Made by a program: the position numbers and the translations under genes. A stretch of 64,000 nt of DNA, from positions 5,019,372 through 5,083,371 of the forward strand of contig NZ_KI632511.1 in the NCBI RefSeq assembly GCF_000504285.1, given 5' to 3'. This document shows positions 1-60,770 of this stretch, one piece after another. The notes below the pieces were generated by a model that was not told the DNA's origin, did no database searches, and saw only the letters and a list, made by a program, of their open reading frames with translations. This DNA comes from Actinospica robiniae DSM 44927 (GTDB lineage: Bacteria; Actinomycetota; Actinomycetes; Streptomycetales; Catenulisporaceae). The number at the start of each line of letters is the position of its first letter. Within the stretch, counting starts at the first letter, position 1.

Positions 1-597
1 TGCTCGCTGGACGAGCAGGGCCGGGCGCGGCTGGAGCACAAGCCGGTCCCAGCGCTCCGGCGCGACCTGCTCGAGCTGTTCGAGGTCTCGGAGCTGAAGA
101 AGTACATGACCGACGAGGAGCTCGTCGGGCTGCCCGGCGCGGAGCCGGCCGAGGACAAGGTCGAGGACAAGGTCGAGACCGAGGCCGTCGAGGCCGAAGC
201 CGAAGTGGTCGAGGCCGAGCCTGAGGCTGAGGTCGAAGTCGAGACCGAGACCGAAGCCGACACCGAGACCGAGACCGAAGCCGAGACCCAGACCGAGACC
301 GAGACCGAGACCGAAGCCGAGACCCAGACCGAGACCGAGACCGAGACCCAGACCGAGACCGAGACCGAGACCGAAGCCGAGACCCAGACCCAGACCGAGA
401 CCGAGGCTGAGGCTGAGGCTGAGGCTGAGGCTGAGGCTGAGGCTGAGGCTGAGGCTGAGGCTGAGGCTGAGGCTGAGGCTGAGGCTGAAGTCGAGGCCGA
501 GGCCGGCCAATCCGCGCAGATCCCGGCCCAGGCGGAGGCCGACGCCACCGAGTCGGCGCAGGACGTGTCCGCCGACGGCGAGGAAGGTGCGAAGTGA
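1..597 (+). CDS. sdhA: Succinate dehydrogenase/fumarate reductase flavoprotein subunit, C-terminal part, with acidic repeat tail (5' end outside window)
   Basis: The frame is open from the first base and ends in TGA at 595-597. The first 45 or so residues (ending ...ELKKYMTDEELVGL) look like the C-terminus of the actinobacterial flavoprotein subunit, which oxidises succinate with FAD at the membrane. The assignment also rests on the iron-sulfur subunit gene starting inside the stop codon. After about residue 48 comes a tail of roughly 150 residues that is almost only Glu, Ala, Thr and Val: first Glu-Thr/Glu-Ala hexamer-coded repeats (about 241-402), then fourteen exact GAGGCT units (403-486) coding (EA)14. 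Such a tail is not part of the family as I know it. The catalytic domains are outside the window, so which member of the family this is stays inferred. Confidence 0.8.
   Translation, partial: CSLDEQGRARLEHKPVPALRRDLLELFEVSELKKYMTDEELVGLPGAEPAEDKVEDKVETEAVEAEAEVVEAEPEAEVEVETETEADTETETEAETQTETETETEAETQTETETETQTETETETEAETQTQTETEAEAEAEAEAEAEAEAEAEAEAEAEAEAEVEAEAGQSAQIPAQAEADATESAQDVSADGEEGAK
241..486 (+). repeat. In-frame hexanucleotide repeats inside the sdhA tail
   Basis: From 241 to 402 the sequence is built mainly from GAGACC, GAAGCC and GACCCAG-type units coding Glu-Thr, Glu-Ala and Thr-Gln. From 403 to 486 it is fourteen perfect tandem copies of GAGGCT. The unit length is a multiple of three, so gain or loss of copies changes tail length but never the reading frame. 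Confidence 0.95.
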
Positions 598-1343
598 GCT
601 ACAAGGCCAAGTTCAAGGTCTGGCGCGGCGACGCCGGGGCGGGCTCGCTGGAGGACTACGCGGTGGAGGTGAACGAGGGCGAAGTCGTCCTCGACATCAT
701 CCACCGGCTGCAGGCGACGCAGGCGCCGGACATGGCGGTGCGCTGGAACTGCAAGGCGGGCAAGTGCGGTTCCTGCTCGGCCGAGGTCAACGGCGTCCCG
801 CGGCTGATGTGCATGACGCGGATGTCCACCTTCACCGAGGAGGAGACCGTCACGGTCACTCCGCTGCGCACCTTCCCGGTCATAAGGGACCTGGTGACGG
901 ACGTCTCGTTCAACTACACCAAGGCTCGCGAGGTCGCCGCGTTCGAGCCGCCGGCGGATCTGAAGCCCGGCGAGTACCGGATGCAGCAGGTCGACGTCGA
1001 CCGCTCGCAGGAGTTCCGCAAGTGCATCGAGTGCTTCCTGTGCCAGAACACGTGCCACGCCGTGCGTGACCACGAGGACAACAAGGAGCACTTCGCCGGA
1101 CCGCGCTTCCTGATGCGCGTCGCCGAGCTCGACATGCACCCGCTCGACGGCCGGGAGCGCCGCAACGAGGCGCAGGAGGACCACGGCCTCGGCTTCTGCA
1201 ACATCACCAAGTGCTGCACCGAGGTCTGCCCCGAGCACATCAAGATCACCGACAACGCCCTGATCCCGATGAAGGAGCGCGTGGCCGACCGCAAGTACGA
1301 CCCGCTGGTCTGGCTCGGCAACAAGATCGCCCGCCGGAAGTAG
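594..1343 (+). CDS. sdhB: Succinate dehydrogenase/fumarate reductase iron-sulfur subunit
   Basis: This 249-residue protein carries electrons from the flavoprotein to the membrane anchor. Three cluster motifs are intact: a plant-type [2Fe-2S] site with C53, C58, C61 and C73; a C-x2-C-x2-C-x3-C site at C144, C147, C150 and C154; and a third set at C202, C208 and C212 (FCNITKCCTEVCPEH). The GTG start at 594 overlaps the sdhA stop (GTGA), preceded by GAGGAAGG, so translation is probably coupled. A strong terminator follows at 1379. The short length and cysteine spacing fit the fumarate-reductase-like class common in actinomycetes. No cytochrome b anchor gene follows, so it must lie upstream of the window. 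Confidence 0.95.
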   Translation: MSYKAKFKVWRGDAGAGSLEDYAVEVNEGEVVLDIIHRLQATQAPDMAVRWNCKAGKCGSCSAEVNGVPRLMCMTRMSTFTEEETVTVTPLRTFPVIRDLVTDVSFNYTKAREVAAFEPPADLKPGEYRMQQVDVDRSQEFRKCIECFLCQNTCHAVRDHEDNKEHFAGPRFLMRVAELDMHPLDGRERRNEAQEDHGLGFCNITKCCTEVCPEHIKITDNALIPMKERVADRKYDPLVWLGNKIARRK

Positions 1344-1378
1344 CGGCGTCGATCGCAGCCTTCTGCAGGTTCCGCCCC

Positions 1379-1416
1379 GGTGGCCCGCCGTTCTCGGCGG
1401 GCCACCGCTGTTTTTT
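1379..1416 (+). terminator. Rho-independent terminator after sdhB
   Basis: A perfect 12-bp stem (GGTGGCCCGCCG at 1379-1390, CGGCGGGCCACC at 1395-1406) with loop TTCT is followed by GCTG and six T residues. It closes the sdhAB operon. Confidence 0.93.
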
Positions 1417-15220: not shown

Positions 15221-16864
<1,644 letters not shown>

Positions 16865-28356: not shown

Positions 28357-30141
28357 ATGACCGAGACGCCAGAGCACCCCTCCACCCCCGAGCCGGACCG
28401 GGCAGCCGACCAGGAAGCCGAGCTGGTGCCGGCCGCCGTACTGCCGCAGCACGGCGACCCCCTGGCGCCGGAGGCCCCGGCCCCGGCCCCGGCCGCGAAC
28501 CCGGCCCCGGCTCCGGCCGCGAACCCCTCCGCCCAGTCCGTCGCCGGGCAGAGCTGGGCCATCCAGCCCGCCCCCGCGGACCTCGCGCCGCCGCAGACGG
28601 GTGCGCCGGCGCCGGCCTACCCGCAGCAGCCCTACCCGGCGCAGCAGCAGCCGTACGCCGCCCCGCAGGCTCAGCCGCAGCAGCCGCAGCCGCAGCACGC
28701 GCCGTACCCGGGCCAGCCGCAGCCGCAGGGCAACCCGTACATCGCGCAGCAGCCGCAGCCGCAGTCCTACTCGGCGCCCCAGCCGCAGCCTCAGCCCCAG
28801 CCCCAGCCCCAGCAGCCGGCGGCGTACCCGAGCCAGCCGCTGCCGGCCTCGCCGAGCCAGCCCGCGTCCGGCGCCCCGCTCCCGGCCGCCGGCGCCTCGG
28901 GCGGCGGCGACGGAACCACGCCGTCCTGGGCCACGCCGGCCGTCGGCGGGCTCCCGCCCTACGGCGAGGGCCCCGCGCCGCTGGTCTTCGAGCCGGCCTC
29001 GCGCAACTCCAAGAACCGCACGCTGATCACCGCGGCCGTGGTCGCCGCCCTGGTCGGCGGCGGTGTGGGCGCCGGCATCAGCTACGCGATGCGCGACGAC
29101 TCGGGCAACGCCGTGACCTCCTCGGTCAACACCAGCGGCCTGGACACCGGGTCGGACAACGCCAGCGCCGTCACCGCCGTGGCCAAGAAGGTGCTCCCGT
29201 CCGTGGTGACCATCACCGTGGCGCCGAACTCCTCGAACTCCTCCAGCGGCGGGGACATCGGCACCGGGATCATCCTGAACTCCACCGGCGAGATCCTGAC
29301 CAACAACCACGTCGTGTCCACCGCGGCCGCCGGCGGCTACACCATCACCGTCACCTTCGACGGCGGCGCCAACGCCCAGGCCAAGATCGTGGACCGGGAC
29401 CCGACCAGCGACCTCGCCGTGATCCAGGCCTCGAACGTCAAGGACCTGACCCCGGCCACGCTCGGCGACTCCACCTCGGTGCAGATCGGCCAGGAGGTCG
29501 TGGCCATCGGCGCGCCGCTTGGCATGTCCAACACGGTCACCAGCGGCATCATCTCAGCGCTCGACCGCCCGGTGATCCCCGAGTCCGACAGCGGCTCGGG
29601 CCAGTCCAGCCCGTCCACCTCGGTCACCGCGCTGGACGCGATCCAGACCGACGCGGCGATCAACCCCGGCAACTCCGGCGGCCCGCTGATCGACATGAAC
29701 GGCGCCGTCATCGGGATCGACTCGGCGATCGCCAGCACCGGCTCGAACGACCTCGGCGGCAGCGGCGAGAGCGGCTCGATCGGCCTGGGCTTCGCCATCC
29801 CGATCTCGCAGGCCAAGCCGGTGATCCAGGAGCTCGAGGCCAAGCAGACCCCGACGCACGCGGTGCTCGGCGTCTCGGTGCAGGACGCGGCCGTCACGGC
29901 CACGCACACCGGCGCGATGCTCTCCCAGATCACCTCGGGCGGAGCGGCCGCGAACGCCGGCCTGAAGTCCGGCGACGAGGTCATCGCGATCGACGCCCAG
30001 CAGATCGACGGCTCGGACGCGCTGGAGGCCGCGGTTCACTCGTATCGGCCCGGTACTAGTGTCAAGATCACTTACATCCGCGACGGACAGACCAGCACGG
30101 CCAACGTGACCCTGGCCTCCGCGGTCGACTCCACCAGCTGA
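28357..30141 (+). CDS. pepD: HtrA/DegP-family serine protease (PepD-like)
   Basis: The 594-residue protein starts with a cytoplasmic Pro/Gln/Ala-rich region of about 215 residues (many PQ and PA repeats). One membrane helix (about 227-247) follows, then an extracytoplasmic trypsin-like domain with catalytic triad H318 (TNNHVV), D352 (TSDLAV) and S440 (GNSGGP), and one PDZ domain (about 500-590). It would degrade or refold damaged envelope proteins. In mycobacteria pepD is part of the MprAB regulon and modulates the signal. Here the shared operators imply the same. The coding sequence ends 20 bases before a terminator. The repeat-rich N-terminus is longer than usual. Confidence 0.94.
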   Translation: MTETPEHPSTPEPDRAADQEAELVPAAVLPQHGDPLAPEAPAPAPAANPAPAPAANPSAQSVAGQSWAIQPAPADLAPPQTGAPAPAYPQQPYPAQQQPYAAPQAQPQQPQPQHAPYPGQPQPQGNPYIAQQPQPQSYSAPQPQPQPQPQPQQPAAYPSQPLPASPSQPASGAPLPAAGASGGGDGTTPSWATPAVGGLPPYGEGPAPLVFEPASRNSKNRTLITAAVVAALVGGGVGAGISYAMRDDSGNAVTSSVNTSGLDTGSDNASAVTAVAKKVLPSVVTITVAPNSSNSSSGGDIGTGIILNSTGEILTNNHVVSTAAAGGYTITVTFDGGANAQAKIVDRDPTSDLAVIQASNVKDLTPATLGDSTSVQIGQEVVAIGAPLGMSNTVTSGIISALDRPVIPESDSGSGQSSPSTSVTALDAIQTDAAINPGNSGGPLIDMNGAVIGIDSAIASTGSNDLGGSGESGSIGLGFAIPISQAKPVIQELEAKQTPTHAVLGVSVQDAAVTATHTGAMLSQITSGGAAANAGLKSGDEVIAIDAQQIDGSDALEAAVHSYRPGTSVKITYIRDGQTSTANVTLASAVDSTS

Positions 30142-58184: not shown

Positions 58185-60770
58185 TCACGCCTCGGCGTTG
58201 AGGGCGTCGAGCACCTGCTGGAGGTCCTCCGGACGCACCAGCACGTCCCGCGCCTTGGCCCCCTCGGACGGCCCGACCACCCCGCGCTGCTCGAGCAGGT
58301 CCATCAGCCGGCCCGCCTTGGCGAAGCCGACCCTCAGCTTGCGCTGGAGCATGGAGGTGGAGCCGAACTGGCTGGAGACGATCAGCTCGGCCGCGGAGAC
58401 CAGCAGCTCGAGGTCGTCGCCGATCTCCTCCTCCGGCTTCTTCGGCCCGGCCGCGCCCTCGGTCACGTCGGTGCGGTACTCCGGCGTCTCGCGGGCCTTC
58501 CAGAACTCGACGACGCCGGCGATCTCCTCGTCCGAGAGGTAGGCGCCCTGCAGCCGGGTCGGCTTGGACGCGCCCATCGGCAGGAACAGCGCGTCGCCCT
58601 TGCCCACCAGCTTCTCCGCGCCCGGCTGGTCCAGGATGACCCGGGAGTCGGCCAGCGAGGAGGTGGCGAAGGCGAGCCGGGAGGGCACGTTCGCCTTGAT
58701 CAGGCCGGTGACCACGTCGACGCTGGGCCGCTGGGTGGCCAGCACCAGGTGGATGCCGGCGGCCCGGGCCAGCTGGGTGATGCGCACGATCGAGTCCTCG
58801 ACGTCGCGCGGGGCCACCATCATCAGGTCGGCCAGCTCGTCCACGATCACCAGCAGGTACGGGTGCTCGCGGAACTCGCGGTCGCTGCCGAGCGGCGTCT
58901 CGACCCGCTTGTCCTTCTCCCGCACGGCCTTGTTGTAGTCGTCCAGGTGCCGGAAGCCGGTCTCGGCCAGGTCGTCGTAGCGCAGGTCCATCTCGCGCAC
59001 GACCCACTGCAGGGCCTCAGCCGCCTTCTTCGGCGAGGTGATGATCGGCACGATCAGGTGCGGCACGCCCTCGTAGGCGGTCAGCTCGACCCGCTTGGGG
59101 TCGACCATGATCAGCTTCACCTGGTCCGGGGTGGCCCGCATCAGCACCGAGATGACCAGGGTATTGATGCAGGTGCTCTTGCCCGCGCCGGTGGCGCCGG
59201 CCACCAGGATGTGCGGCATGCGGGTGAGGTTGGCGGTGATGTCGCGGCCCTCGACGTCCTTGCCGAGACCCACCAGCATCGGGTGCGCGTCGCCGACCGC
59301 GTCGCTCGAGCGCAGGATGTCGCCGAGCGAGACCATCTCCCGGTCGGTGTTGGGGATCTCGATCCCTATGGCGGACTTGCCCGGGATCGGCGAGAGGATG
59401 CGCACGTCGGCCGAGGCCACCGCGTAGGCGATGTTCTTCGACAGGGCCGTGATCCGCTCCACCTTCACCGCCTGGCCGAGTTCGACCTCGTACCGGGTGA
59501 CCGTGGGGCCGCGGGTGAAGCCGGTGACCCTGGCGTCCACCGAGAACTGCGCGAACACCCCGGTCAGCGACTCCACCACGGCGTCGTTCGCCTTCGACCG
59601 GGCCCGCAGCGGCGCGCCCGCGGCCAGCAGCTCCGGCGGCGGCAGCTCGAGCGAGCCGGCGCCGACCGCGGGCCGGGTGATCGGAAGCTGATCCGGCTCG
59701 GGCTTGGACGCGCGCGGAGACCTCGGCGCCCGGGTCTTCTTCTGCAGCGGCAGCGGGAGCAGCACGGTCGGCTCGGCCGCGGCCGGCCCGTCGAGATCAG
59801 GGTCCTGCGGAAGCTCCGGGTCCACCTCGGGATCGGCCGGCCCGAGCGGCAGACCCCCGACCGCGGCCAGCTCCGTCGGATCGCTGCCGTCCAGCCTCGG
59901 GTCGCCGGCCGGCAGCGCCCGGCCGTGGAACGCCGTGTCCAGCATCCGGTCGGCCCGCGCCCGCGCGTCGCGCAGCCGGCCCGGGATCCGGTAGATCGGC
60001 GTGGCCGTGGTCACCAGCAGGCCGAAGAAGCCGAGCAGCAACAGCAGCGGGACGGTCAGCCACTGGCTGAGCACGGCGGAGAGCGGCGCCGAGGCGAACC
60101 AGCCCAGCCAGCCCGTGCCGTGCCGCATCGCCTCGGCCCCCATCGACGGGGTCGGCGCGCCGCGCGCGATGTGCGTCACCCCGAGCACGCTCAGGCTCAA
60201 GCAGGTGAGTCCGATCGCGATCCGCCCGGACTCCTCCACCGTCTCGTTCGGGTGGCGCATGACCCGGATCGCCAAGCCCAGCAGCACCAGCGGGATCACC
60301 CAGGCCAGGCAGCCGGCCGCACCGACCACGAAGTCGTAGATGCCGTCGCCCACGACCCCGGGCACCTTGTGGAACACGGCCGCCCCGACGATCAGGCCGG
60401 CGGCGATCAGCAGCAGGCCCGCGCCGTCGCGCCGGTGATCGGGATGCAGCCCCTGCCGCTCGGCCGCGCCGGGCGCGACGGCGGCGCCGTCACCGGTGCG
60501 GGCGGCCGTATCCGCGGCCCGCACCTTGCGCCCCCTCCCCCGCCGCGCCAGCGCGCCCACGCCGCGGCTGGTGCCGACCCAGAGCATGGTCAGAAAGAGC
60601 GTCAGCGCATGGAAGAACAGGTCGACCGGACCGCGCACGGTCGGAGTGGCAGAACCCTTGCCCTTGCCCTTGCCCTTGGCCTTGCCCGCACCGGCGCGCG
60701 CGGGCCGCGCAGCCGGCTTCTTGGCCGTGCGCTTCGCCTGCGTACGCTTCGCGGGGGCAGGAGACGGCAT
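58185..60770 (-). CDS. ftsK: DNA translocase FtsK
   Basis: The 861-residue protein pumps chromosomal DNA during septation. After a Lys/Ala-rich start (many GKGKGK units) come about four membrane helices (roughly 55-75, 110-225), a linker, and the motor domain. Walker A VAGATGAGKST lies near residue 520, Walker B LLVIVDELADLMM near 640, and a winged-helix gamma domain that reads KOPS-type sites closes the protein (VGFAKAGRLMDLLEQRGVVGP). ATG 60770. The linker is short compared with E. coli FtsK, as usual in Streptomyces. Confidence 0.96.
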   Translation of the reverse strand: MPSPAPAKRTQAKRTAKKPAARPARAGAGKAKGKGKGKGSATPTVRGPVDLFFHALTLFLTMLWVGTSRGVGALARRGRGRKVRAADTAARTGDGAAVAPGAAERQGLHPDHRRDGAGLLLIAAGLIVGAAVFHKVPGVVGDGIYDFVVGAAGCLAWVIPLVLLGLAIRVMRHPNETVEESGRIAIGLTCLSLSVLGVTHIARGAPTPSMGAEAMRHGTGWLGWFASAPLSAVLSQWLTVPLLLLLGFFGLLVTTATPIYRIPGRLRDARARADRMLDTAFHGRALPAGDPRLDGSDPTELAAVGGLPLGPADPEVDPELPQDPDLDGPAAAEPTVLLPLPLQKKTRAPRSPRASKPEPDQLPITRPAVGAGSLELPPPELLAAGAPLRARSKANDAVVESLTGVFAQFSVDARVTGFTRGPTVTRYEVELGQAVKVERITALSKNIAYAVASADVRILSPIPGKSAIGIEIPNTDREMVSLGDILRSSDAVGDAHPMLVGLGKDVEGRDITANLTRMPHILVAGATGAGKSTCINTLVISVLMRATPDQVKLIMVDPKRVELTAYEGVPHLIVPIITSPKKAAEALQWVVREMDLRYDDLAETGFRHLDDYNKAVREKDKRVETPLGSDREFREHPYLLVIVDELADLMMVAPRDVEDSIVRITQLARAAGIHLVLATQRPSVDVVTGLIKANVPSRLAFATSSLADSRVILDQPGAEKLVGKGDALFLPMGASKPTRLQGAYLSDEEIAGVVEFWKARETPEYRTDVTEGAAGPKKPEEEIGDDLELLVSAAELIVSSQFGSTSMLQRKLRVGFAKAGRLMDLLEQRGVVGPSEGAKARDVLVRPEDLQQVLDALNAEA

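Follow-up and report, generated by a model that had tools for sequence, protein, structure and literature searches.

Why does the flavoprotein of a core respiratory enzyme end in a long, repetitive acidic tail? The question is raised by the first 597 bases of the window analyzed here, a stretch of 64,000 nucleotides (64 kb) from the acid-soil bacterium Actinospica robiniae DSM 44927, the 9.92-Mb genome of which is assembled as a single contig. These bases form the 3' end of sdhA, a complete gene of 782 codons (full gene, L008:2621-4969) within an sdhCAB operon; the operon lies on a single strand, and its sdhC encodes 267 aa and its sdhA 782 aa. The sdhA frame is open from its true start to the TGA at 595-597, with no stop codon ahead of the repeat.

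SdhA scored above the curated threshold of the NCBIfam model NF005866 (1210.6 bits; cut-off, 819), and the adjoining SdhB was of the matching type (NF009052, 506 bits). The closest solved chains to SdhA and SdhC were subunits A and C of Mycobacterium smegmatis Sdh1 (7d6v/7d6x), which a review (PMC10238741) assigns to the Class F complex II enzymes, with a Rieske cluster in the membrane. Both systems have an identical sdhCAB subunit set; the SdhA core aligns over residues 5-629 with 1012 bits, and SdhC is alike over nearly its whole length (308 bits to 7d6v_C), with the CHSCRH motif and the SPC...C stretch kept. The identity of a succinate dehydrogenase flavoprotein, proposed in a preliminary description of the window, is supported. 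As judged from its sequence, SdhA is the flavoprotein of an Sdh1 or Class F Rieske-type complex II with a predicted Rieske cluster. The likeness ends at residue 629 of 782, where the 7d6v_A alignment stops, whereas SdhA of M. smegmatis itself stops at 635 aa without an acidic tail. The last conserved residues of the A. robiniae protein are MTDEEL, at window positions 106-123 (C-terminus ...ELKKYMTDEEL), and the other SdhA-type proteins of this genome that were read have ends without such a tail.

The composition of the sequence that follows is extreme: 39% Asp and Glu, 22% Ala and 16% Thr, with no Cys, Trp, Phe, Tyr, His or Met. Such a strong residue bias, at the protein end and outside the folded core, marks it as an A/E-rich low-complexity tail. 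That an in-frame acidic repeat follows a normal C-terminus had already been recognized; we found that the core ends with DEEL at base 123, so that the long acidic tail stands and its start lies slightly earlier than the 148 given before (149 aa for 148-594). The features of the region are collected in the table.

Features of the sdhA 3' end and of sdhB in the window (positions in the window; aa, amino acids)
Feature	Positions	Strand	Basis or remark
3' end of sdhA core, to conserved DLLELFEVSELKKYMTDEEL	1-123	+	Aligns to 7d6v_A C-terminus; NF005866
Acidic low-complexity C-terminal extension of SdhA, 157 aa, net charge -58	124-594	+	
Glu-Thr block: GAGACC hexamers with GAAGCC and CAGACC variants, in longer repeated units	241-402	+	Codon list, repeat family
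Perfect (GAGGCT)14, encoding (Glu-Ala)14	403-486	+	Exact
End segment IPAQ...EEGAK	520-594	+	Similar in nearest species; IPGQ...AAEEK in most Catenulispora
Probable sdhB ribosome-binding site GAGGAAGG, within last sdhA codons	580-587	+	Seen in sequence
sdhB, GTG start overlapping sdhA stop TGA, 249 aa, ordinary length	594-1343	+	NF009052
Intrinsic terminator-like hairpin 3' of sdhB	1378-1407	+	

The origin of the perfect hexamer run can be read from its codons. GCT accounts for 2.1% of nearby Ala codons (235 counted across the sdhA core, sdhB, sdhC and the following gene), versus 14 of 14 in the run. When the same protein was encoded in 1000 random draws with local codon usage, the longest run averaged 4.2 units and reached at most 12. 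Because a locally rare Ala codon is present in every copy, the run bears the mark of growth by tandem DNA duplication rather than of codon choice, and the slippage signature claimed earlier for an exact 14-copy repeat is present. It is also the only perfect hexamer run of at least five units in the window, and four consecutive GAGGCT units were found at no second place in the genome. The copy number of 14 was read from one assembly. AlphaFold2, applied to the 198 residues encoded in the window, had low confidence for the greater part of the Glu-Thr block and predicted a helix for residues 119-171, over the Glu-Ala run, where block confidence reached 93. Over-prediction of long helices is common in charged repeats, and this helix was not relied upon, since predictions on repeats are unreliable. 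The best reading is that of an acidic extension, disordered or in part helical, on a cytoplasmic flavoprotein.

Is the tail a peculiarity of one protein? The SdhA core was present in all 14 genomes searched in the family survey, and 13 genes were readable to the stop codon, with one genome per species. Counted after DEEL, the tails comprise 157, 118 (nearest species) and 7 residues (G002) in Actinospica, 27 in a second genus, probably Actinocrinis, and 114, 33, 109, 103, 106, 93, 106, 123 and 45 in a third, Catenulispora. Long A/E-rich tails of 93-157 residues thus occur in 9 of 13 genomes, tails of 27-45 residues in three and a tail of 7 in one; the net charge is negative in every one of the 13. 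The repeat units differ from species to species, and the tail ends are similar. The nearest species has another sequence with a matching end segment and without a comparable perfect run. The Actinospica relatives appear to be A. durhamensis and the tailless A. acidithermotolerans, and the second genus appears to be represented by Actinocrinis puniceicyclus (PMC9308616). One Catenulispora contig equals that of C. rubra DSM 44948, and another genome of the genus seems to fit C. acidiphila (PMC3035231).

Beyond the family, the survey covered 48 stretches, for which a long open frame was one of the selection criteria, and 80 named loci, two of the latter being Catenulisporales genomes already in the family count. 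Tails read to the stop were mostly of 0-20 residues, the longest having 45 and the next 35 (Actinomadura), so that no tail longer than about 45 residues was seen among the actinobacteria read outside the family. The acidic tail is lacking in 7d6v and in Streptomyces orthologues, and a tail-only search of genome contigs found no relatives, as expected for low complexity. The tail is unexpected on a core respiratory enzyme, as was noted before; it is a trait of the family Catenulisporaceae and not a one-gene curiosity. Two further SdhA proteins deserve mention. The longest outside tail is Pro-Ala-rich and belongs to an Sdh1-type SdhA in another actinobacterial family (L100, G209), apparently as an independent extension. 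In a genome of the same order (L083, G014, f2/g4), SdhA carries a small low-complexity insertion, GGPATGTGTGTST, inside the C-terminal domain, a second site at which this protein tolerates repeats.

Different parts of the tail change at different rates. The variable part aligns poorly, and over those stretches that could be aligned its dN in close pairs was 0.18-0.32, versus 0.01-0.04 for the core. The end segment, IPAQAEADATES...EEGAK in the window and the nearest relative, is more stable and shows about 11 synonymous changes of 22, versus about a quarter expected (p ~0.004, a rough value from fractional counts of four independent pairs pooled by hand), which suggests some constraint, weak and purifying. 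This may partly belong to sdhB, because the final sdhA codons hold the sdhB ribosome-binding site: GAGGAAGG or GAGGAG lies directly ahead of the sdhB start, and the junction of sdhA stop and sdhB start, together with a GAGG-type site, is kept in most family genomes. In the core tree, G002, which lacks the tail, branches as sister to both long-tailed Actinospica species, so that the tail was either lost in its lineage or acquired repeatedly. The family is not recovered there as a single clean group, which makes two origins possible.

Taken together, these data indicate that the tail is probably a lineage-specific, slippage-expanded acidic low-complexity extension that is mostly tolerated and has at most a generic effect on the protein. 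A short GAG-rich acidic C-terminal end would have been extended in the ancestor of the Catenulisporaceae, or twice within the family, and would later have grown and shrunk in whole-codon units by slippage or unequal recombination. Its position beyond the end of the folded core may explain why it is tolerated. Loss of frame in the tail would disturb translation of sdhB, and the last sdhA codons may be kept in part because they contain its ribosome-binding site. Any effect at the protein level would most likely be generic (hydration, charge or crowding) rather than a specific binding site. An essential role is argued against by the tailless congener, the relaxed change and the lack of compensating basic charge in the SdhA core, SdhB or SdhC, the charges of which are alike in long- and short-tailed species; nothing found here points to a specific role. 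The earlier expectation that slippage would change length without breaking the frame is borne out between species (7-157 aa), and it is between species that the slippage reading holds. That most of the family keeps a long, net-negative tail speaks against pure neutrality.

The net negative charge of all 13 family proteins, together with the similar end segment, speaks for a selected acidic arm, that is, a tail that may act electrostatically by holding SdhA near a basic partner, gating access to the enzyme or aiding assembly. Acidic disordered tails are known to act on a basic core in Hfq (PMC5606850) and in proteins with D/E repeats (PMC10250230), but these are nucleic-acid-binding proteins and not respiratory enzymes. 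GAG-rich repeat growth would also keep the tail acidic without selection, the tail is missing from G002, G001 and G010 have short ones, and the charge of the other subunits shows no matching shift with that of the tail. The effect on assembly or the tethering proposed earlier is therefore unsupported, and we consider a selected arm rather unlikely. A more elaborate version, in which complex II of the Catenulisporaceae would have evolved an acidic C-terminal arm of variable length, rapid changes in repeat number serving to adjust either assembly of the complex or its position in the respiratory chain, appears improbable. A link with acidophily was considered and is not compelling: the short- or no-tail congener and the Actinocrinis-like genome, if correctly identified, are equally acid-loving.

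The last 480 nt of sdhA contain 25 GAGG motifs, which, being Shine-Dalgarno-like, might slow ribosomes before the overlapping sdhB start and couple the synthesis of SdhA and SdhB; the mRNA also folds slightly better than shuffled sequences (z -1.9). Such a z value is weak and expected of any repeat, species differ in codons and units, and G001, G002, G004 and G008 have only 4-7 such motifs, so that an RNA-level role is quite improbable. It is still less probable that this perfect, in-frame hexamer run is a contingency locus, at which variation in copy number would be maintained so as to tune the enzyme from cell to cell, because the frame is kept at every copy number, leaving no on/off switch, and the nearest species lacks a comparable perfect run. 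Perfect 84-bp repeats can be mis-sized, and the species was represented by a single genome; an invented or mis-sized repeat is nevertheless extremely improbable, given that the run fits within single reads and that tails of different sequence occur in related genomes, in the nearest species with the same end segment and repeatedly in Catenulispora. The tail itself is hence neither a collapsed nor an invented repeat.

The proposed tolerated growth by slippage has parallels elsewhere. A/E-rich low-complexity regions are known across bacteria in housekeeping proteins such as S16, with slippage named as a source (PMC6821194); the SdhA tail resembles these, whereas it is long, sits on a respiratory flavoenzyme and contains an exact hexamer run. 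With Hfq, the acidic disordered C-terminus of which acts on its own core (PMC5606850), SdhA shares a conserved core, an acidic disordered C-terminus, a variable linker and a similar tip, but it has no known basic ligand-binding surface to cover. Our literature searches found no papers joining Catenulispora and succinate dehydrogenase, and none that connect actinobacterial succinate dehydrogenase with acidic tails.

Other low-complexity genes were noted in this genome. In the window, an HtrA/DegP-like protein (by eye; 28357-30141, + strand) has a Pro-Gln-rich N-terminus of short tandem repeats (TRF 28473-28861), and an FtsK/SpoIIIE-like protein (by eye; 58185-60770, - strand) has an N-terminal KGKGKGKG encoded by a 5.5-copy CCCTTG hexamer (60655-60687, + strand). 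Another core gene with such growth encodes a sigma-70-type factor (15221-16864, - strand), in which a long N-terminal stretch of AAPAKK repeats precedes an acidic one. Elsewhere, S16 of this genome carries an A/E/K/P low-complexity tail of roughly 60 residues (L210, G000:C1:5187113-5187289, - strand), and an unrelated protein, with a C-terminal part that resembles L,D-transpeptidases (by eye), has an SdhA-like acidic repeat, namely a long Glu-Val/Glu-Ala/Glu-Pro segment ahead of a putative membrane segment (L204, G000:C1:7233000-7236500). The S16 tail, the sigma factor and the acidic open reading frames support the reading of tolerated low-complexity growth.

The SdhA tail thus resembles neither a novel machine nor an error of sequencing; it appears to be a disordered appendage that is lengthened and shortened by slippage. 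One housekeeping enzyme that occurs in close relatives with and without a growing acidic tail (7 to 157 residues) provides a clean natural series, which allows a test of whether so much disordered charge has any cost or use for a respiratory complex and bears on the way in which slippage creates new protein ends in genomes of high GC content. An inert tail would be a good example of tolerated low-complexity growth.
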